NCBI GenBank assembly: GCA_011523795.1
Contig: WTFY01000006.1
Coordinates: forward strand, 1-64,000
Direction: 5' to 3'
Source: Gammaproteobacteria bacterium
GTDB taxonomy: Bacteria; Pseudomonadota; Gammaproteobacteria; UBA4575
DNA: 64,000 bases
Below the pieces are notes generated by a model that was given only the letters and a program-made list of their open reading frames with translations, did not search any database and had not been told where the DNA came from. The translations under genes were made by a program, and so were the position numbers. Shown here one piece after another: positions 43,675-54,983 of this stretch (positions within the stretch are counted from its first letter, which is position 1; each line of letters begins with the position of its first letter).

Positions 43675-43697
43675 GAGACACGATTTTGGGGGCGAGA

Positions 43698-45017
43698 GTG
43701 AACACGGAAAAAATAAGTTTAAGGACTAACTCAATCCAGAAACCCAGTACTTATACATTCATCGATTTATTTGCAGGCTGTGGAGGGCTGTCATTGGGTC
43801 TGATGAAAGGTGGTTGGGTGGGACTACTTGCCATAGAAAAAAATCGTGATGCATTTAAAACTCTCAGTCACAACTTAATAGAGAAGGAGAATAAGTCTCA
43901 GGACAAACCATATCTCCAGTGGCCAAATTGGTTAGAGAAAAAACCTTTTGAGATACGAAAATTTATCAAGGACTACCGCTGGCAACTTGATTCGTTGAGG
44001 GGGAAAGTTTGTCTCGTTGCTGGGGGACCTCCCTGCCAAGGATTTTCTCTCGCAGGAAAGCGTACAGGTAGGGACCGGAGAAATAATCTCTTCAAGCTAC
44101 AGTTAGAAATCGTTGATATTTTGAAACCCAAGTTAGTGTTAATGGAAAACGTACAAGGTATCAACGCGATTTTTGGAGGAAAAGAAATCGGTAAGAGAAG
44201 AAACCGGGGAAAACCACGCAAGAGTTATTCCACCAAGATTAGAGAAGCGCTAAGTAACCACGGCTACCTAGTACAACAAGAACTAATTAAAGCCTCAGAC
44301 TTTGGAGTGCCACAATATCGCCCTAGGTACTTTACTGTAGGTGTTCGAGAAGACCTATTTTCTGAAAGCCAAGTTCCAGATTTCTTCCAAATTCTCAGCG
44401 GAGTCAGGAGAAATTTTTTAACCAGTAAAAGATTACCCCTGAAACGTTCAGTTACTGTAGCTGAAGCAATCTCTGACTTGAGGTCTGAATTTGCAGAAAT
44501 TACAGAGTGTAGTGACCCTGATTCACCTTCAGGATTTAAAGAAATTGTATACAAGAAACCCAGCACTCAATACCAGAAACTCATGCACAAAGGCTTGAAT
44601 GGACACCAACCTAATAGTTTGCGCCTAGTGAATCATCGTCCAGATACGGTAAGCCGGTTCAAGGCGATCTTACGAACCTGCCAAAAAGGAGTTAGCGTGC
44701 CAGATTCGGAGCGGGTTAGGTTAGGAATTGGAAAGCAACTGATAGTCCCCCTATCTCCTGATTTACCATCACGTACTTTGACAACACTGCCGGATGACTT
44801 GCTTCACTACGCTGAACCCCGGGTCCATACCGTGCGAGAGAGTGCTAGGTTGCAGTCATTCCCGGATTGGTTCGAGTTTCATGGAAAATTCACTACAGGC
44901 GGCAATCGTCGTGCAAAGGATTGTCCAAGGTATACTCAGGTAGGAAACGCAGTTCCGCCGCTTTTGGCCGAAGCCATAGGCATTGCAATGAGGGAATTGC
45001 TCATTAAGAATGATTAA
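43698..45017 (+). CDS. C5-cytosine DNA methyltransferase
   Basis: Transfers a methyl group to carbon 5 of cytosine in a DNA target sequence. The GTG at 43698 was chosen because a GGGGGCGAGA stretch precedes it; a TTG four codons earlier is possible. The 439 residues contain all key motifs: I DLFAGCGG (23-30), IV GGPPCQGFS with catalytic C113, VI ENVQG (E150), VIII QYRPRYF, IX RTLTT and X YTQVGNAVPP. The region between VIII and IX sets specificity and cannot be read. Its A/T-rich codon use differs from both the host and the following genes. It is the first gene of the island cassette; 114 bases separate it from the ATPase gene. Confidence 0.95.
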   Translation: MNTEKISLRTNSIQKPSTYTFIDLFAGCGGLSLGLMKGGWVGLLAIEKNRDAFKTLSHNLIEKENKSQDKPYLQWPNWLEKKPFEIRKFIKDYRWQLDSLRGKVCLVAGGPPCQGFSLAGKRTGRDRRNNLFKLQLEIVDILKPKLVLMENVQGINAIFGGKEIGKRRNRGKPRKSYSTKIREALSNHGYLVQQELIKASDFGVPQYRPRYFTVGVREDLFSESQVPDFFQILSGVRRNFLTSKRLPLKRSVTVAEAISDLRSEFAEITECSDPDSPSGFKEIVYKKPSTQYQKLMHKGLNGHQPNSLRLVNHRPDTVSRFKAILRTCQKGVSVPDSERVRLGIGKQLIVPLSPDLPSRTLTTLPDDLLHYAEPRVHTVRESARLQSFPDWFEFHGKFTTGGNRRAKDCPRYTQVGNAVPPLLAEAIGIAMRELLIKND

Positions 45018-45131
45018 GCCCGCTTGGCATCACCGAGACAATCTATACGTACGAATGAATGTAAGAACCAAGGCTTTAGTAGGTATTTAAGCTCACGCAG
45101 TAGCTCGTCATCATTAGGGAATATACGGTTG

Positions 45132-47210
45132 ATGGATAAACAGAAGAGTCATAAATTCCCCGATGGACTTCTTAATTGGGCGGGGCATCGAGACGGTGGT
45201 GTCAAAAAGCCATTCTCTACCAGTTCGGGCAGACCTACTGGTGGCCTAGTAGAGACAAGTCTCACACAAAGATTAAGTGTCTGGGCCAACAACTTGTCTT
45301 CGGGACAAGAAGGTATGCCAGTAGCGATGTTCCTAGTAGGTGGGCCCGGTAACGGGAAAACAGATGCCATTGAGACTGCTATCCGACTTCTCGATACAGC
45401 TTTTGGTAAAAACGGACAGCTGCTAGATAGTTGCAGGTCCAAGTTCGATGTCGAACTACCCCCCCGTAAGATTGTTGTCGATTTGGCCGAGTTCGTTGAC
45501 GAGTCGAGCATGCTCCATAACCGAGAACTTGTCATCATACAAGATGCAACGGAGGTCGATCTTGGAAAACCTGGTAGCGCTCCCGAATCCCTGTTCTTAG
45601 ATGATGTTGAATCCCTTTTAATAACCGGCGAAAGGGATTGTCCGTTGTTTCTTTGTGGTATTAACCGCGGAATCCTCGCTCATGCAGCGCTCGTCGGCCA
45701 CACGGAAAACTATGATCCAGCTACGCTGGACTTTATTGACACACTCACCCGTTCGGCCACCTCTAGATCGGGTAAAGAAACCAAGGCGTGTTGGCCTCTT
45801 GATGGGTACGAATGGGCCGTGGCATGGCCGATGGATGTCGAGTCATTGGTAGATCACCCACATATGGGAGACGACGCCCCGACACCGATAGGGCAAATCC
45901 TAGAAAAAGCATTGGATTCTGTTACATGGACATCAGGTTGTAGTGCAGGTGACCTATGTCCTTTCCATACTAACAAATTGCTACTTGATGACATCCAGAC
46001 TCGGAAACAATTTTCTCGAATACTACATTTCTACGAGTTAGCTTCGGGCAAGCGATGGAATTTTCGTGATTTGTTCTCGTTGGTGTCACACGTGTTAGTG
46101 GGCCATGAATCCATGTTTATCGTTAACGATCAACGGGTGCCACCTTGTGAATGGGCGACGTACCATGCGAATAGAGCCCGTGGCACTGGCCCTGAGGCAA
46201 TCTTGTCTGCCTGGTCATTGGCATCGCGGTTGTATACACATGCGATGTTCCCGACATGGCCTAAGCTCGTCGATGTAGCAAAGAATACACGAGAGTTGAA
46301 AAGAAGTTACGCAAAGTTACCCCCTGGTTTTGACAAGTTTTTTCTGGAGATTGCGAATGACCGAGACTGGGAGAATACGGAGATTGGCTTATTACTAGGT
46401 AACGAGTTTTGCCTAGCGCTTGATCCCGCTAACACTCGTCGCGAGCTTGAGCTTCCGGGCGGATTAACCATAGGCGAAATTGAAGACTCGTACACTACGT
46501 CAATTCAGCGTGGCTTGGAACTTACCGGCGAGCATCTCAATAAGATTGAGCTTCTGTTAGTCGGGCTGCTCTCAACGGCGGACGAATCATGCGAACCAAA
46601 TGTTGTATCTCCGCTCATGTACTCCAAGGCTAAGGCAGTCCAGTGGCACTTGAGGTCTCTAGCTAGTCGTTTTGTTAAGCGTGGGATTGCGGGTGGTGCG
46701 GGTATTTGCCGTGACTACATGTTCCTCAAACGCTACCATGCTTTGCTCAATGGGAGTGGGGATAGCGTGCGTCGATTGAAAAAATCCTTTCAGCGCTTGC
46801 TTAGCAATAGCCCCGAGGGCTTTTCCATCTCGCTCAGCGCAACGTTCGGCCAGCCGTCGAATTTGAAATTAGGAGGAGCCTGCCTTTCAGGAGTCCGTCA
46901 GGCACCTGTAAAAGCCGAGCCCGTGGTAAATAACGAGTCCCGACCTCGGGAGATGCTACCGTATCTACTAGTAGACAAAGTGCCTGTGCCGATAACATTC
47001 CCACTATTCAAGGCATTGTCTGAGGTAGACGAGGGACTTATGACAGCGTCTCTTCCCGGAGAAATTTTTGCATTAGTGGATGGGACACGCAACTTGCTAG
47101 CTGGGCGACTTGTCCACAATCACGAGTGGCTTGAGGATGCCAGAGTTGTTATCGGTGAATGCAAACAAGTGCTTACTATCGAGGATGGGAAGGTGACATA
47201 CGCACAATGA
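45132..47210 (+). CDS. Island P-loop ATPase (cassette gene 2)
   Basis: A 692-residue protein with Walker A GGPGNGKT at residues 70-77. A likely Walker B/sensor region follows at LFLDDVESLL and PLFLCGINRGIL. A four-cysteine/histidine patch (CSAGDLCPFH) precedes YELASGKRWNFRDLFSLVSH, which has the look of an AAA-type lid. The start at ATG 45132 was preferred; an upstream TTG at 45024 would add 36 Ser/Arg-rich residues. Its stop overlaps the next ATG (ATGA). The size and position recall DptF of Dnd restriction modules, but I cannot confirm homology. Probably supplies ATP-dependent assembly or remodelling to the complex with genes 3 and 4. Confidence 0.75.
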   Translation: MDKQKSHKFPDGLLNWAGHRDGGVKKPFSTSSGRPTGGLVETSLTQRLSVWANNLSSGQEGMPVAMFLVGGPGNGKTDAIETAIRLLDTAFGKNGQLLDSCRSKFDVELPPRKIVVDLAEFVDESSMLHNRELVIIQDATEVDLGKPGSAPESLFLDDVESLLITGERDCPLFLCGINRGILAHAALVGHTENYDPATLDFIDTLTRSATSRSGKETKACWPLDGYEWAVAWPMDVESLVDHPHMGDDAPTPIGQILEKALDSVTWTSGCSAGDLCPFHTNKLLLDDIQTRKQFSRILHFYELASGKRWNFRDLFSLVSHVLVGHESMFIVNDQRVPPCEWATYHANRARGTGPEAILSAWSLASRLYTHAMFPTWPKLVDVAKNTRELKRSYAKLPPGFDKFFLEIANDRDWENTEIGLLLGNEFCLALDPANTRRELELPGGLTIGEIEDSYTTSIQRGLELTGEHLNKIELLLVGLLSTADESCEPNVVSPLMYSKAKAVQWHLRSLASRFVKRGIAGGAGICRDYMFLKRYHALLNGSGDSVRRLKKSFQRLLSNSPEGFSISLSATFGQPSNLKLGGACLSGVRQAPVKAEPVVNNESRPREMLPYLLVDKVPVPITFPLFKALSEVDEGLMTASLPGEIFALVDGTRNLLAGRLVHNHEWLEDARVVIGECKQVLTIEDGKVTYAQ

Positions 47211-48706
47211 ACGGACTGGAAAATTTTGAACGTGATCCTTTTGGCAAGCAAATGCATAAGGGTTACTCTGAATCTTTTCTGAACATGAGACCAGCACCGG
47301 AGTACGCCTCAGGTGAAGTAATACTGTCTTCACTTTACCGATCCGTAGGGTTTCCTAATATCAAAGAAAGCAAGGTTCCGGAATTAGGGTCGCGATTAAC
47401 AAAGAAGCTGGGTGTTGATGATGGCATACAGCATGTACTGGACCACGATACGTGGAAGGTTGTTTTACAAAAGACACTGGAGAGTCCCAAGCTACCTAGC
47501 CAATCAACAAAACGTTTCATGCTACTGTGCCCCGTGGTACCCGGGGTCGCGGCGTATTCCGGTTCTGCACGCATGTCTAAAAATTCTTGGAACCCAGGAA
47601 ACCTCGTGGGCCGCATGGTTAGGATGGGTAGTAACTCGAACGAGGGAGCCCGATCGATATGGGCTCAACTATTCAACTCCTTGTCTGTCGATAGCGACGA
47701 CGAGCCATGGGCTAACTTGCTTAAGGGTGAATTTCTCCGAGAGGAGGAAGAAAGCGAGGTCTGGAAGTTTAACCCGCTCAATGAAGTGCCGTACCTAGAA
47801 TCATGGAAATCGCCTGAGTTCCCATCTCCTGCAGGGAAATTTGTACATGATCTTGGCAAGGTGCTGGGGCTGAAACAGATTTTAACAAGACGTCAGTGGG
47901 TAAGTATCGTCGAATCACTCCTACGTTTAGCAAGCGTCTCCCATATCATGTGGCTTTGCAAAGTAAACGAGCAAGCGTTTAACTTGCTTCACGATGCCCT
48001 TAATGGTCAAAGCCCGGGTGATGTCAGCGAGGTACAAGAACGTCTTTTCGCGAAACACCCATCAACATGGTGCATCGGGCAACAAGTATTGCCAACAGTG
48101 CGCCGTCTTGCTCGTAACTATCTAGTTGCACGAGTCGGGATCAACTACTTGCTTTTCCTATCCGAGGCTAGAGGAATTTTGCCTGAAAGCTGGAGGCAAG
48201 GAGTAGGCACCCCGGTCTGGTTCCAAGAATTTGTATCACGCGTTTACAGCAACCGTGATGTACTCAATGCACATGATCCACTAAGAAAACATCAGCACTT
48301 AGTAGAGGATGACCCAAGAATATTGGCGTGCAAAAAAGGTATAGGCAAGAACATCGAGGAGTTCGCTAGGCACGTTCTAGGACACCGGCAGGCAGCCGAC
48401 GAGCACCTAGTTGTCTACGACCAAGGGTACTTTGCTATCAAAAATGGTGACTACCAGTCGGCACCATGGGTGTTATCGCCCGGATCAGTTGCCATCATGA
48501 TGCTTTGCCATTGCTGCGCAGCTGGTAGCAAAGCCCCACGCACGGTGGAGCACCTTTGTGAACACCTCAACTGGTACGGGATCGGCGTAAAGCCCAACGA
48601 TTTGGTGGTGAGTGAACTTGGACAGACATTGCGAAACCTTGGCCTAGTGCTTGATAGCCCCGATGCAGAAGGAGGCATGGTCATTCTAGACCCGTTTAGA
48701 GCATGA
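47207..48706 (+). CDS. Island protein of unknown family (cassette gene 3)
   Basis: A 499-residue protein starting MNGLENFERDPFGKQ. The start at 47207 overlaps the upstream stop by four bases and the 3' end overlaps the next ATG the same way, so it is made in step with its neighbours. No catalytic motif, membrane segment or signal peptide is visible. The sequence is rich in Trp and Leu and appears helical. The last ~60 residues (NDLVVSELGQTLRNLGLVLDS) could be a winged helix. In position it is comparable to DptG of Dnd systems; this is inference from order and size. Confidence 0.65.
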   Translation: MNGLENFERDPFGKQMHKGYSESFLNMRPAPEYASGEVILSSLYRSVGFPNIKESKVPELGSRLTKKLGVDDGIQHVLDHDTWKVVLQKTLESPKLPSQSTKRFMLLCPVVPGVAAYSGSARMSKNSWNPGNLVGRMVRMGSNSNEGARSIWAQLFNSLSVDSDDEPWANLLKGEFLREEEESEVWKFNPLNEVPYLESWKSPEFPSPAGKFVHDLGKVLGLKQILTRRQWVSIVESLLRLASVSHIMWLCKVNEQAFNLLHDALNGQSPGDVSEVQERLFAKHPSTWCIGQQVLPTVRRLARNYLVARVGINYLLFLSEARGILPESWRQGVGTPVWFQEFVSRVYSNRDVLNAHDPLRKHQHLVEDDPRILACKKGIGKNIEEFARHVLGHRQAADEHLVVYDQGYFAIKNGDYQSAPWVLSPGSVAIMMLCHCCAAGSKAPRTVEHLCEHLNWYGIGVKPNDLVVSELGQTLRNLGLVLDSPDAEGGMVILDPFRA

Positions 48707-51700
48707 GCAAGTTTCTCGATTGGGTGTCCAACCACGTTAGGGCTCATATCGCATCTGAGTTGCACACCTCGGGTGATGGCAATTTCCGCTCAGTATTTGC
48801 AGGACTCCCCGAGAACATGCTCGATGACCTCTTGGAGGGTCTAGTGAATGATGGCTTCATGCAAGTCAGTATAAACGGTAATGACGAGAAAGTTATCGTT
48901 CTATTACCAACCAAGACAGAAAAAAACCCGGATGGAATCAGCTCAGGACGTTGCAACCAAGGTTATCTGGTTTCAGTTAGGAATAGCCATGTAAAGCACT
49001 TGTTGACTTTACAACCACCGGGTGAAACACAAATAAAGTCCATCAGGTCGACCGTGACATGGTTCGGCGTGTCCCCTGCTGCGTTGGCAGACGCAAGTGT
49101 CTGGTGTGAAGACACGTTTGTCAGGGAAATTCTACGACACGCAACGAGGAGCCGGGGTATTGCAAATGACGAGGTGCCTAGCTGGCTCTCGGCAGTCATG
49201 TTGCGACTTGCTGTACTCGACGAAGTTAACGGCTTTACAGATACCAAGTGGACGGTTATGCGGCGCTTATTTGACCAACCAGCCCCCAACGTCGAGAACG
49301 GTAATTTCCTGGTGATGTTTGCAGCTTGCGGGCTAGTCAGGCCATCAGACGGGGAAGGAGACCTCGAAGCGCTTCCCAAGCTAGTAGAAACCATTGGCGA
49401 ATATTTGGAACGTGAAGGTCTCGTGAATGGATTTGCCAGCCTGAGGCACTGTGCCCAACAATTATCCGGCGATGACTACGATGTCGAAACAATCATAGAC
49501 GCTCTTAACGAGTTCGAAAAACACGTGCTCAAGTGTGCAAAATCTGCGCCAGGGTTTGCCTCTTTTGCACTGCGATTTTATTGCCCTTACGAGGAATGCC
49601 ATTTTGATGGAAGCATACCGGATTGGTGGTACAACTTGGACACAAACACGTGGCAATCTCTCTTAGATTGCAAACCCGCGCCGCAATCATGCATCAAGGT
49701 CAAGGTCGTAAATGGTATTGGGCAAGAAGATTTGAAAGGGCTACCTGCTGTGACCAATAACGGCATCAGATTCGAGATCACGGTAACCTCGGGTGCGTCT
49801 CGACCCAGAATAGAGGTCACCCGCAGAGTAGGGCGCCGAAATGCCGAGACAATAGGAACTATCGATCCAGGTTTTGGAAATTCCAGTTTTCATGATGAAG
49901 AGGTGCCCTCCCATAACCTTCCCCTTACCTACACATTTGAGCCATCTGACCCGGGTTGCAAGCCTGCAAGTACCAGAGTCATCTCGCTTCAAGCCTATGA
50001 GCCTGGGTTTGTAGCTAGTAGCCGTGGAGCAGAGAAAGTTACCCTGCCAAAGCTGGCAAAATCGAGTGGTAACACACGGGTTTACGAGTGCGACTTAGAG
50101 CTCGACGGACAAGGCGTCCACCAGATGGATCTACTTGCATGTACTGGGTTCCAAATCGATGGCGTGGTTCATGGCTACGGAGTCACGACAGATGACGACG
50201 ATGAGGATGAGACGATTGTAAATCCTGCCAAGATCACTGAGGGTCAGTGGAATTTCTACGCAGAGACAGATGAGGAATGCCGCTACGAGTTTAACTACAC
50301 GTTGCTGAACGGGGAGAGTGCCAGAGCAAGGTTAAGCTTGAGGGCGGGTGACGTTGAACCTGCCGGGACAAGCAGCGAATTTCACCGGTTGGTTCTTGAA
50401 GTTAGCAGTGGACGGTCAGCCCGCGTTACCTTGAAGGAAAGCCAGTTGATATACAGTTTGGAGCGCTGGATGCTGGATGACAAGCTCTCCTACCGACCAC
50501 TGCTATTGTCACCCAGCTTAGGGAATAGTAGGGAAAAGCCTGACTGGGACGCGAATCCGCTCTGGTCTAGCCATACACCGGTCTACGACCCTAGACCAGA
50601 TGCTTCGGTGCTTACTCCGCCTGATAGCCTGGTGAAAACCCGTCACAAAATTGCCCAAATGATCCGTGAAGAACAAAAAACTGGGATTTGCGAACGTGCA
50701 CCTATGGGGAAGCTTTACATGCACGACGAGAAATTCCATGCAAGGGTAGACCAGTACGTCACTAACTACATTGAATGGTTGAAAGACGATTACGAAAACG
50801 CTGCACTGTTTGATACCGTACTTGCTTGTTTTTACCAGCCCAGAAGCGAGGTGCTCCAGCCGGTACCTGTAGCCGTCCTGCTATCCCCTTTGCACCCTTT
50901 GAGGCTCGGTTGGCAAGTTGCCGCACAATACCTGCTTGTCGATGCACAAGACAGGGGGGTTAAGTGCCCCGGGGCAAGTGTCATAGATTCCAGCTGCGTA
51001 CCTGACTCAATGGCACTGCCGGTGGTAAATGCTAAAGGAGATACAGGGTTCGTTCCTTTCGTTTCTATTCCTAGTAGTTCAGATTACTGGGGGGTCCTAT
51101 GGAACTCTAACGAGCTCGACAAGCTAGGCAGCAGCGAATCAAATCGCTTATTTAGCGAAGATCTCGGCATAACGATCTCAGGGCTATCTGCTGGTTTTTC
51201 TGGCGCACAGGTTAAGCGAGCGATGCAGGAAGTTTTCGATGTTAGCGCTGGGCGCTCGCGCCTGCGAGTTCGTCTGCTAAGTGATGTAGAAGGAAAAACC
51301 GATACGCACGAGGGTATCAACGACTGGGCTTTAGCACACCTTGGTAACAAGGACCCTTGGCAGGTCGCAGCTCGGACCAGCATTGACGTTATCGATGCAA
51401 GGAGAGATGAGCAAAGGCCAATTGAGCCCTTCGTCGCAAACCTAACCACGAGGACCCAGGGAGCAGTGCGCTGGATAGTTGATAACAAAGATGATGCACA
51501 GCACGTTGACCTATCCCTCATTTCCCACTTGAAACGGATTACACCTGAAACCTGTACGATGAGTGCGCATTCTTCTACCAGCCTTGGTTCTCTTACTAGA
51601 GAACGCACATGCTACCCTTTAGCGGCTACAGGTGGGCACATGCTAGGCGAATCTAGAACCTTGCCAAGCAATCTAACCCCAGCCACTCTCTCGAAAAAAG

Positions 51701-54213
51701 TAGACAGCTTGGCGTTGAATCTCGAGTTGATAGATTCTTGCTTCGAGTCAGCAATGGCTAGCAAGTGTTCATGTGATGGAATTTCCTTTGCCCCTAACTT
51801 GCCAATCTTGGAACGTGGCCTAGAGGCCTCGGCGTACTGCGCAGTTTCTTCCACTGATGTCGATTCCTCAGCGTTTTTACGAACTCAACATGGCCCCTAC
51901 CTGTGGGATTACGACATACCCTCGTACGCGGGAAAGGCTCAAGAGAATGCAGGGTATTACTTGCTGGCAAAACATTCCACAGAGATAGAGAAACAAGTTG
52001 AACGTGCCCTAACCTTGTTGGGAGGCGTAAACTTTGAAAACGAAATAACGCGGCAATTGCTCGCGGAAATTTCTCAAAGGGGATTACCCTCTTTAAAAGA
52101 ACTTGCATCCGGAGGATCTTCCGCGACTGGTGAACTCGGCTTGCTTGTAGCTTGCCGGTTACTCCAAGGGCCACCGGGTTGTGAAAGTGATATTCCCAAG
52201 TTACTCCCATTAATCGATGAAGAAAGACGGGTAATTAACCTCTTGCTGCCGGTAGACCCATTTGCAGCACAGTTCGACGATTTGCGAAAAGCGCTTAAGA
52301 CGGATAATTTTCAGCGTCCTGACCTGCTGGTCGCGAGCATGCGTTTCGACGAAGAGAACAACCCGGTGGCCTTGCACCTGACACCCATCGAGGTCAAGGC
52401 ACGAACAGGTAACATGAACGTGTCTGCGCGTCGGTCGGCACTTGCCCAGGCTAGTAGTTTCGCGCTTTTCTTGACTCGCCTGCTGATCAAGGCCAAGGAG
52501 GAACCGGTATGGATGTTGGCGGTGACCAAGTTCATGGCAACCTGGTTTAGCTTCTGTTTCCGTGTACACGCCGGGATGGTGCCCAGTGGATTCCGAGACC
52601 AGTTCATGGAGTGCAACTCGGCAGTAAACCAAGCTTTGCTCAGGGGACAGCTTGAATCCAGCGTGGATAAACGCGGGCGGCTAGTGGTAATCCATGACGA
52701 GGCAACAAGTCATCCATCGGACCTTGATGGCGACGGGTTCGAAGAAACCATCTCGTTGAAGCCAGGTGATGCCCTAGGCGTCATAACATCCCCGGCGAGC
52801 AGCAGCGTACTACGTGGGATAATAGAACAAATGGGGACCTGGGACTTGCCTGTTCCTACGACCCGCAGAACGGACGTCGCGACGGGCTGGGTCGGACCCA
52901 GGGACACGCTACGGGAGCCTGATAATCATGGACAGCCCGTTACCGATCCACCGGGTATAAGAGAGCCTGACAAGATCGTCCGGCCACCAATTGATAAGCC
53001 TGTTGAAAACTTGGTACCAGCCACACAAGAAGCGGCGACAGGTTCTGGCGAGGAAATGTTGAAGGGATCCACAGGTATTCGCTTCGACGTCGGAAAGACC
53101 CTAGACTCGTTCCACGAGGAATCGCGTGAATTCTTCCCTGGGAACACGCAGCTCACCCAGCTGAACATCGGTGTCGTAGGAAATCTAGGAACAGGTAAAA
53201 CGCAGTTAACAAAAGCCCTCATTTACCAACTGTCACGTAAGAATCATCAAAATTTTGAACAAAAACCATTTTTCCTAATATTTGATTACAAACGCGATTA
53301 CAGCGACTCCGAGTTTGTCCAGACACTCGGCGCAAAGGTCATCAAGCCGCGGAACATACCTATTAACATTTTTGACACTTCCACGGTCCCCGGCGAAAGC
53401 CCTCCATGGTTAGAACGCTCTAATTTCCTGTGCGATGTTCTTGCCAAAATTTACGCTGGTATTGGGCCGGTTCAGCGAGAGAACCTCAAACAATCGGTAA
53501 AAAATGCTTACCGAGTAGTCAGTTCAAATAGCAAAACGGCGCCAACGTTACCGGATGTCTTTGCCGAGTACCGCCAACTCGTAAACAAACCAGACGCCGT
53601 TTTCTCGATCTTGAGTGATATGGTGGATATGGAACTGTTCGAAGAGAATCCCAAGCACCTTTTGCCTTTCTCTAGATATCTGGAAGGTGTTGTGGTCGTG
53701 GACCTTGCAAGCCTCGGGCAAAACGACAAGGCCAAGAGCATGCTTGTTGTCCTGTTTCTCAACCTGTTCTACGAGAACATGCTTCGATTGAAGAAGTTTC
53801 CTTTTGTCGGCAAGGATCCCCAACTCCGTACCATAAACGGGTTCCTGCTAGTTGATGAGGCAGACAACATCATGCGTTACCAGTTCCCTGTTTTACAAAA
53901 CGTGTTGTTACAGAGTAGGGAATTCGGTGTAGGCGTATTGCTTGCATCCCAGTACCTGTCTCACTTTAGACCCGATGCCCATACGAATTACAGGGAGCCC
54001 TTGTTGACTTGGTTCATCCACCAGGTACCAACCGTCACTGTGAACGAGTTAAAAGGGATAGGGTTAGCCGAGGTGGATAATGGCACCGTGTCAAGGATTC
54101 AGGAACTAGGCCAACATGAATGTCTGTACAAAAGTCTGGGCATCAACGGGGAGTTTATCCGGGGAACCCCATATTACGTGTTGAAAGACGGAGAGCAAGA
54201 CAATACTAATTGA
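48703..54213 (+). CDS. Giant 1836-residue ATPase with PD-(D/E)XK-like motif (cassette gene 4)
   Basis: The largest island protein. The N-terminal ~1200 residues show no recognised domain; there is an acidic insert near DDDDEDETI and a conserved-looking SPLHPLRLGWQ. A restriction-nuclease-like signature follows: D1207 in RPDLLVA, 23 residues later E1230 and K1232 in PIEVKAR. A Pro/Thr/Glu-rich linker (~1410-1450) leads to a C-terminal ATPase with Walker A GNLGTGKT (G1493-T1500), Walker B FLLVDE (D1718, E1719) and VLLQSREFGVGVLLASQ after it, resembling HerA/FtsK-type translocases. The architecture suggests a motor-driven nuclease. The length and C-terminal motor resemble DptH and the large ATP-binding protein of MADS. 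The next gene starts at the stop (TTGA). Confidence 0.78.
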   Translation: MSKFLDWVSNHVRAHIASELHTSGDGNFRSVFAGLPENMLDDLLEGLVNDGFMQVSINGNDEKVIVLLPTKTEKNPDGISSGRCNQGYLVSVRNSHVKHLLTLQPPGETQIKSIRSTVTWFGVSPAALADASVWCEDTFVREILRHATRSRGIANDEVPSWLSAVMLRLAVLDEVNGFTDTKWTVMRRLFDQPAPNVENGNFLVMFAACGLVRPSDGEGDLEALPKLVETIGEYLEREGLVNGFASLRHCAQQLSGDDYDVETIIDALNEFEKHVLKCAKSAPGFASFALRFYCPYEECHFDGSIPDWWYNLDTNTWQSLLDCKPAPQSCIKVKVVNGIGQEDLKGLPAVTNNGIRFEITVTSGASRPRIEVTRRVGRRNAETIGTIDPGFGNSSFHDEEVPSHNLPLTYTFEPSDPGCKPASTRVISLQAYEPGFVASSRGAEKVTLPKLAKSSGNTRVYECDLELDGQGVHQMDLLACTGFQIDGVVHGYGVTTDDDDEDETIVNPAKITEGQWNFYAETDEECRYEFNYTLLNGESARARLSLRAGDVEPAGTSSEFHRLVLEVSSGRSARVTLKESQLIYSLERWMLDDKLSYRPLLLSPSLGNSREKPDWDANPLWSSHTPVYDPRPDASVLTPPDSLVKTRHKIAQMIREEQKTGICERAPMGKLYMHDEKFHARVDQYVTNYIEWLKDDYENAALFDTVLACFYQPRSEVLQPVPVAVLLSPLHPLRLGWQVAAQYLLVDAQDRGVKCPGASVIDSSCVPDSMALPVVNAKGDTGFVPFVSIPSSSDYWGVLWNSNELDKLGSSESNRLFSEDLGITISGLSAGFSGAQVKRAMQEVFDVSAGRSRLRVRLLSDVEGKTDTHEGINDWALAHLGNKDPWQVAARTSIDVIDARRDEQRPIEPFVANLTTRTQGAVRWIVDNKDDAQHVDLSLISHLKRITPETCTMSAHSSTSLGSLTRERTCYPLAATGGHMLGESRTLPSNLTPATLSKKVDSLALNLELIDSCFESAMASKCSCDGISFAPNLPILERGLEASAYCAVSSTDVDSSAFLRTQHGPYLWDYDIPSYAGKAQENAGYYLLAKHSTEIEKQVERALTLLGGVNFENEITRQLLAEISQRGLPSLKELASGGSSATGELGLLVACRLLQGPPGCESDIPKLLPLIDEERRVINLLLPVDPFAAQFDDLRKALKTDNFQRPDLLVASMRFDEENNPVALHLTPIEVKARTGNMNVSARRSALAQASSFALFLTRLLIKAKEEPVWMLAVTKFMATWFSFCFRVHAGMVPSGFRDQFMECNSAVNQALLRGQLESSVDKRGRLVVIHDEATSHPSDLDGDGFEETISLKPGDALGVITSPASSSVLRGIIEQMGTWDLPVPTTRRTDVATGWVGPRDTLREPDNHGQPVTDPPGIREPDKIVRPPIDKPVENLVPATQEAATGSGEEMLKGSTGIRFDVGKTLDSFHEESREFFPGNTQLTQLNIGVVGNLGTGKTQLTKALIYQLSRKNHQNFEQKPFFLIFDYKRDYSDSEFVQTLGAKVIKPRNIPINIFDTSTVPGESPPWLERSNFLCDVLAKIYAGIGPVQRENLKQSVKNAYRVVSSNSKTAPTLPDVFAEYRQLVNKPDAVFSILSDMVDMELFEENPKHLLPFSRYLEGVVVVDLASLGQNDKAKSMLVVLFLNLFYENMLRLKKFPFVGKDPQLRTINGFLLVDEADNIMRYQFPVLQNVLLQSREFGVGVLLASQYLSHFRPDAHTNYREPLLTWFIHQVPTVTVNELKGIGLAEVDNGTVSRIQELGQHECLYKSLGINGEFIRGTPYYVLKDGEQDNTN

Positions 54214-54983
54214 TTGGTTGTAGTACTTTCATGCATGCGACTAGAGTGAATCCCTCGCAAACAAGTCGCGGTGCTATAATAATCAAGTTACACCTAGACG
54301 TGGAACCAAGCGAAAACCATTTGAATATCTCTAAAGACGACATCTCCTTGTTCCAGAAACTAGTTCTAGGGTGGGCAGGCCAGCACGGGAGAAGTTTCCC
54401 GTGGAGACGAGCGAGGGAAAGCCATTACCGCGTTGTTGTAACTGAACTGTTGTTACAAAGGACCAAGGCAGAAACTGTTCGTAATTACTACGGAGTTTTC
54501 TTTTCCCAGTTCCCTAACTGGAAAGCACTCGCACAAGCTCCCAAGACCGAGATCGGCAATGCCCTTAAGCCTCTAGGACTTTGGCAACGCAAGGCACCCG
54601 TGTTGAAACAACTCGCTAATGAAATGGTAGCCCGGAACGGGCGGTTCCCACAGAGACGCGAGCAGATAGATTCATTGTCTGGTGTAGGGCAGTACATCGG
54701 AAACGCAATCGAACTACTATGCCAACATCGATCTAAGCCATTACTCGATGCAAGTATGGCCAGAGTGCTTGAGCGTTACTTTGGTCCTAGGATGCTCGTG
54801 GACATCCGTCATGACTCGTACTTGCAAGCTTTATCGCACCACGTGGTTGATCACGACCAAGCCAGAGAAATAAACTGGGCGATATTGGACCTTGGTGCAC
54901 TGGTATGTAGAAATAGGAGTCCGTCTTGTGGTGAGTGTAAACTACGCATGACGTGCAAGACGGGTCAAGCAACCACCGTGTAG
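54210..54983 (+). CDS. HhH-GPD DNA glycosylase resembling thymine-DNA glycosylase MIG (cassette gene 5)
   Basis: A 257-residue EndoIII/MutY-fold glycosylase. Key elements: FPWRRARESHYRVVVTELLLQRT (helical core; quoted part FPWRRARESHY), the helix-hairpin-helix LSGVGQYIGNA with Y162, the catalytic Asp D180 in LLDASMARVLERYFG, and a C-terminal [4Fe-4S] loop C233-X6-C240-X2-C243-X5-C249. EndoIII has Lys and MutY has Ser where Y162 lies. Tyr at that place and the D-A-(N/S)...RYFG pattern are those of MIG, the G:T mismatch glycosylase coded next to a C5-methyltransferase in Methanothermobacter. Hence a repair role against 5-methylcytosine deamination. Start TTG at 54210 couples it to gene 4; ATG 54231 is the alternative. 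Confidence 0.82.
   Translation: MIGCSTFMHATRVNPSQTSRGAIIIKLHLDVEPSENHLNISKDDISLFQKLVLGWAGQHGRSFPWRRARESHYRVVVTELLLQRTKAETVRNYYGVFFSQFPNWKALAQAPKTEIGNALKPLGLWQRKAPVLKQLANEMVARNGRFPQRREQIDSLSGVGQYIGNAIELLCQHRSKPLLDASMARVLERYFGPRMLVDIRHDSYLQALSHHVVDHDQAREINWAILDLGALVCRNRSPSCGECKLRMTCKTGQATTV

Follow-up and report, generated by a model that had tools for sequence, protein, structure and literature searches.

A predicted MIG-like thymine-DNA glycosylase in the Vsr position of a C5-methyltransferase operon with DndFGH-type genes

The restriction-like operon described here ends with a gene for a DNA glycosylase. Which lesion would this enzyme repair, and to which of its neighbours is it functionally tied? 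The gene lies at 54210..54983 on the + strand of the window, the stretch of 64,000 nucleotides analyzed as a whole in this study, and encodes a protein of 257 aa with a Pfam HhH-GPD match (8.9e-13). From this domain, its family placement and its residues, we predict a MIG-like thymine(uracil)-DNA glycosylase.

The operon and its genes

The operon is transcribed from the + strand in the order C5-methyltransferase, F, G, H and glycosylase, the genes overlapping or nearly abutting. The methyltransferase with which the initial annotation had paired the glycosylase is indeed encoded in the same operon, at 43686..45017 (+), with F, G and H between the two; its product of 443 aa matches PF00145 (5.8e-49) and displays the motifs DLFAGCGG, GGPPCQGFS, ENV and GNAVPP. 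A scan with F retrieved 72 related loci (66 genome loci, 2 viral contigs and 4 plasmids), and a C5-methyltransferase is linked to F in 69 of them. The operon genes contain 44-50% G+C as opposed to 58-60% upstream, which suggests that the operon is an acquired island. Among 94 genomes searched, the F gene was found in its own genome only and was absent from the other searched genomes of the genus or family.

The F gene (45024..47210, +) encodes a DndF-like P-loop protein; its open frame begins with a TTG at 45024, the likely start being the ATG at 45132. Alignment of 71 homologues delineated a Walker A motif (GGPGNGKT), a conserved VNRG-type strand and a Cys-rich insert. The G gene (47207..48706, +, 499 aa) is bordered by ATGA overlaps at both ends, with F and with H. 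Searches of Pfam, NCBIfam and PADLOC, loose cut-offs included, returned no match for either F or G. An hhalign comparison of F with DptF, testing for a DndF P-loop kinase with a large lid, gave a weak profile match over 220 columns (P 1.5e-4, probability 51%). The AF2 model of G (pLDDT 90) has DndG as its top PDB match (7exx, Z 15.6 over 360 residues), SspB following at Z 4.2, and Foldseek also matched the model to 7exx (1e-5); the likeness is one of fold only, hhalign having found no sequence-profile match between G and DndG. The H gene (48703..54213, +) encodes 1836 aa comprising a PD-(D/E)XK nuclease motif (D1207...E1230-V-K1232) followed by a C-terminal HerA/FtsK-type ATPase (Walker A at about 1493-1500, Q1750), the motif residues being conserved in at least 93% of 65 homologues. 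It matches DndH in PADLOC (1.7e-63) and DptH by hhalign (1.7e-44 over 366 columns).

Because H matches DndH, the model of G fits DndG and F weakly matches DptF, profiles and predicted structure together indicate that F, G and H most plausibly form a DndFGH-type restriction complex of divergent sequence. The likeness to DndFGH/DptFGH extends to the number of genes, their order and their similar sizes, as well as to the DndG fold of G and the combination of nuclease motif and HerA/FtsK ATPase in H. The differences are the weak profile match of F, the lack of a sequence match for G, and the presence of a C5-methyltransferase in place of the DndABCDE phosphorothioation genes. DndB, DndC, DndD and DndE were not found at the 72 related loci, nor was DndC in the genome carrying the window, whereas at four canonical DptFGH plasmid loci Dnd modification genes, but no C5-methyltransferase, lie close by. 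According to a reappraisal of Dnd systems published in 2024, DndFGH has no modification component of its own (PMC10853773).

The glycosylase gene starts with a TTG codon whose TTGA junction overlaps the stop codon of H, and its translation may be coupled to that of H. Its product contains all the features listed in the initial annotation, namely Y162, D180, the RYFG segment (ERYFG in full) and a four-cysteine loop. The last, an iron-sulfur loop of the form C-X6-C-X2-C-X5-C (C233, C240, C243 and C249; codons C233 to C249 at 54906..54956, +), is kept in relatives. The top match in a sequence search of the PDB is MIG (1kea, 4e-32), the best MutY reaching 2.5e-27. Across 398 Pseudomonadota genomes, a profile of the glycosylase subfamily gave this gene 369 bits, no other score exceeding 150; on these scores the subfamily match lies far beyond chance.

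Exchange of repair genes and linkage to methyltransferases

Repair genes were sought by profile searches of all frames at the 72 loci. Vsr was found at 46 loci, a MIG-like gene at 4, neither at 22 and both at none, the window being a fifth MIG locus. Under random placement the chance of this zero overlap is about 0.005, relatedness being ignored and the window counted. Vsr comes directly after H in 42 of its 46 loci. The MIG-like gene likewise follows H directly in the window and in L014, and lies within about 160 bases of it in L010, L055 and L028. This distribution lends direct support to the proposal of the initial annotation that the glycosylase replaces Vsr, for which comparative genomics thus provides good evidence. 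Two distant F-G-H operons have a very different C5-methyltransferase directly after H, in the repair-gene slot (L068:12342-13577 and L070:16788-18002).

In seven of the 22 loci with neither gene, the sequence stops no later than the end of H. A complete H followed by 1.8 kb or more of sequence, but by neither Vsr nor a MIG-like gene, is found in at least 14 relatives, and repair is therefore better described as an accessory tied to the methyltransferase than as an 'integral part of the system', a wording of the initial annotation that was too strong. Apparent Vsr pieces at the loci with neither gene overlap the end of H as in-frame upstream extensions of stop-to-stop ORFs and were discarded.

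On the tree of F and G, the Vsr and MIG states require at least two changes. L010, a MIG locus, is sister to the Vsr loci L013 and L015, whose methyltransferases cluster with the methyltransferases of further Pseudomonas operons that carry Vsr. With F and G of L013 and L015 nearest to L010, but their methyltransferase on the Pseudomonas side, the repair gene in this one case goes with the methyltransferase and not with the restriction genes. In the Massilia locus L025 (9995-21963), which has F-G-H, a methyltransferase was not detected upstream; a different methyltransferase is found downstream with a Vsr gene, and this pair would again constitute a methyltransferase-repair cassette.

On contig 10 of the genome carrying the window, a Vsr gene directly precedes a second C5-methyltransferase-like gene (L130:1432-3191). 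A Vsr activity of some sequence specificity would be available in this genome through that gene, which weighs against the repair role proposed below for the glycosylase. Vsr and the glycosylase would appear to serve different methyltransferases in a single cell.

The association of the glycosylase family with methyltransferase genes, which the initial annotation had put forward for examination, also emerges from plasmids. Loci from Thermus, haloarchaea, Caldicellulosiruptor, Alisedimentitalea and Methanothermobacter were among those chosen by similarity to the glycosylase and not by their neighbours. Of the 10 informative loci, 9 have a C5-methyltransferase within 1.5 kb of the MIG-like gene, compared with 1 of 35 for MutY-like genes (one-sided Fisher, about 1e-7, relatedness ignored). 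The link thus extends to unrelated restriction systems. On the Alisedimentitalea plasmid (L006:14001-14645), the MIG-like gene has a C5-methyltransferase and an MvaI/BcnI-type enzyme as neighbours; it contains an in-frame stop in its N-terminal part and may be broken or start later. A narrower glycosylase profile found one prophage among viral contigs, where an MvaI/BcnI-type restriction enzyme gene is followed by a MIG-like glycosylase gene (L122:1-1870). Haloarchaeal plasmids (L112 and L118) repeatedly combine a MIG-like gene with genes for a C5-methyltransferase and an ATP-binding protein, possibly as another defence operon.

These linkages bear on two other roles that can be envisaged for the glycosylase. 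It could ensure general repair of uracil and other deamination products, unmatched to the target of the methyltransferase, since the substrates of Mig.MthI include U/G in addition to T/G (PMC2714593). The strong association between MIG-like genes and C5-methyltransferases, and the interchange with Vsr, whose known representatives are specific for 5mC, make this role improbable. Somewhat less probable again is a role in restriction itself, in which bases would be excised from invading DNA. Base-excising restriction enzymes do exist (reviewed in PMC12707154), the gene resides in a restriction-like operon and its translation may be coupled to that of H; yet the same slot in relatives holds Vsr, a repair nickase, many intact operons have neither repair gene, the repair gene tracks the methyltransferase, and enzymes of the Mig.MthI type act on mismatches.

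MIG versus MutY

The structural comparison suggested in the initial annotation favours MIG only nominally: the AlphaFold model of the glycosylase (pLDDT 85) matches MIG with Z 22.7 and MutY with Z 22.0, a tie within one unit, and the two families are not separable by this fold comparison. Phylogeny is more discriminating. In a tree of 53 proteins, the 35 MutY-like rows, which include the genome's own MutY, form a clade with 99/99 support and the window glycosylase falls outside it, away from the MutY orthologues among which a placement would have counted against the MIG-like identity proposed in the initial annotation. It belongs instead to a clade of seven rows (100/98) with four proteins of F-G-H loci and two encoded beside MvaI/BcnI-type restriction enzymes; the tree thus places it with glycosylases from further operons of methyltransferase or restriction genes.

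The residues point in the same direction. In E. coli MutY the adenine determinants are V45 and Q182, whose Mig.MthI counterparts are A50 and L187, and the double substitution A50V/L187Q turns Mig.MthI into an A/G enzyme (PMC2714593). The V45 position, occupied by Val in all 35 MutY-like rows and by Ala in 15 of the 16 MIG-like rows, is A87 in the window glycosylase, as in MIG. The Q182 position is Gln in all 35 MutY-like rows and Leu or Trp in MIG-like rows (Trp in 9 of 16), and corresponds to W223 here. A87 and W223 are the diagnostic positions, both MutY adenine determinants being lost from the predicted protein. Thymine excision is not proven by these two residues alone, because E. coli MutY carrying V45A/Q182L gained no T/G activity (PMC2714593). 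Tyr at the position of the EndoIII Lys, which the initial annotation had used as a mark of MIG, is present as Y162, but it also occurs in 4 of the 35 MutY-like rows and is therefore not diagnostic by itself. Ser182 occupies the position of MutY Asn140 and MIG Asn146, which is Gly in two relatives, and represents a departure from both families.

The window glycosylase shares with MutY its fold and the catalytic Glu and Asp. The iron-sulfur loop is followed by 8 residues, compared with 157 in the 381-aa MutY encoded elsewhere in the same genome, and the C-terminal 8-oxoG domain is missing. A second MutY-like adenine glycosylase, present in a defence island by chance, is the least likely of the alternatives: besides the equivocal fold, it is favoured by the best NCBIfam model (TIGR01084 mutY, 2.4e-44), which at 152 bits stays well below its cut-off of 286, and it is opposed by the tree, the lost determinants and domain, the normal MutY already available to the cell and an operon slot common to Vsr.

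The closest characterized enzyme is Mig.MthI (MIG, PDB 1kea), which acts on T/G mismatches and is encoded on the Methanothermobacter plasmid pFV1. Both proteins have the HhH-GPD domain and the iron-sulfur loop, keep the catalytic set E42/Y126/D144 (here E79, Y162 and D180), have Ala at A50, are devoid of the MutY C-terminal domain and are encoded near a C5-methyltransferase and a restriction enzyme. They differ in the replacement of Leu187 by Trp and of Asn146 by Ser, in about 29-32% identity and in belonging to separate clades; the host of the window glycosylase is a bacterium, and its restriction partner is of the DndFGH type whereas that of Mig.MthI is of the NgoPII type.

Repair at the methylated sites

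Thymine mispaired with guanine by deamination of 5-methylcytosine is not mended by uracil glycosylase. In the mechanism that we propose, the C5-methyltransferase would mark self DNA and F-G-H would cut unmarked DNA through the nuclease domain of H and ATP-driven translocation. The methylated sites would become hotspots of 5mC to T mutation through T:G intermediates, and the system would for that reason carry its own T:G repair. The MIG-like enzyme would remove T from T:G, base excision repair would restore C, and in most relatives the same task would fall to a nick by Vsr. Vsr and the glycosylase share the operon slot and this presumed task but have unrelated folds, the former nicking DNA and the latter being predicted to excise a base. 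Gene order, family placement, the specificity residues and the mutual exclusion of Vsr and MIG are observed in the sequences; the activity of the glycosylase, the methylation target and the protection conferred by 5mC against F-G-H are three elements that we infer. Taken as a whole, it is highly probable that this MIG-type glycosylase excises T (and U) opposite G and repairs deaminated 5mC at the sites of its own operon's methyltransferase. We hold with moderate confidence the broader view of a widespread DndFGH-type complex that uses C5-methylation and not phosphorothioation as its self mark, together with a module for T:G repair that is exchangeable between Vsr and MIG and travels along with the methyltransferase.

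The proximity of Mig.MthI to a methyltransferase and the association of Vsr with Dcm are already known. No description of a Vsr/MIG exchange in one slot or of a 5mC-linked DndFGH-like operon was found in the open-access papers searched, and the text of the 2024 reappraisal mentions neither Vsr nor glycosylases (PMC10853773). Two unrelated repair enzymes in one operon slot amount to a natural experiment, which ties MIG-like glycosylases to the repair of 5mC deamination and indicates that T:G repair goes together with the methyltransferase in immune systems. The methyltransferase linkage of the related complex also makes testable the question of modification in DndFGH, a complex without a modification component of its own according to that reappraisal. 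PADLOC labels the glycosylase family REase_II 'nicking endonuclease'; this name and the NCBIfam name mutY are both misleading for the protein, and short 'mutY' annotations adjoining methyltransferases may need renaming.
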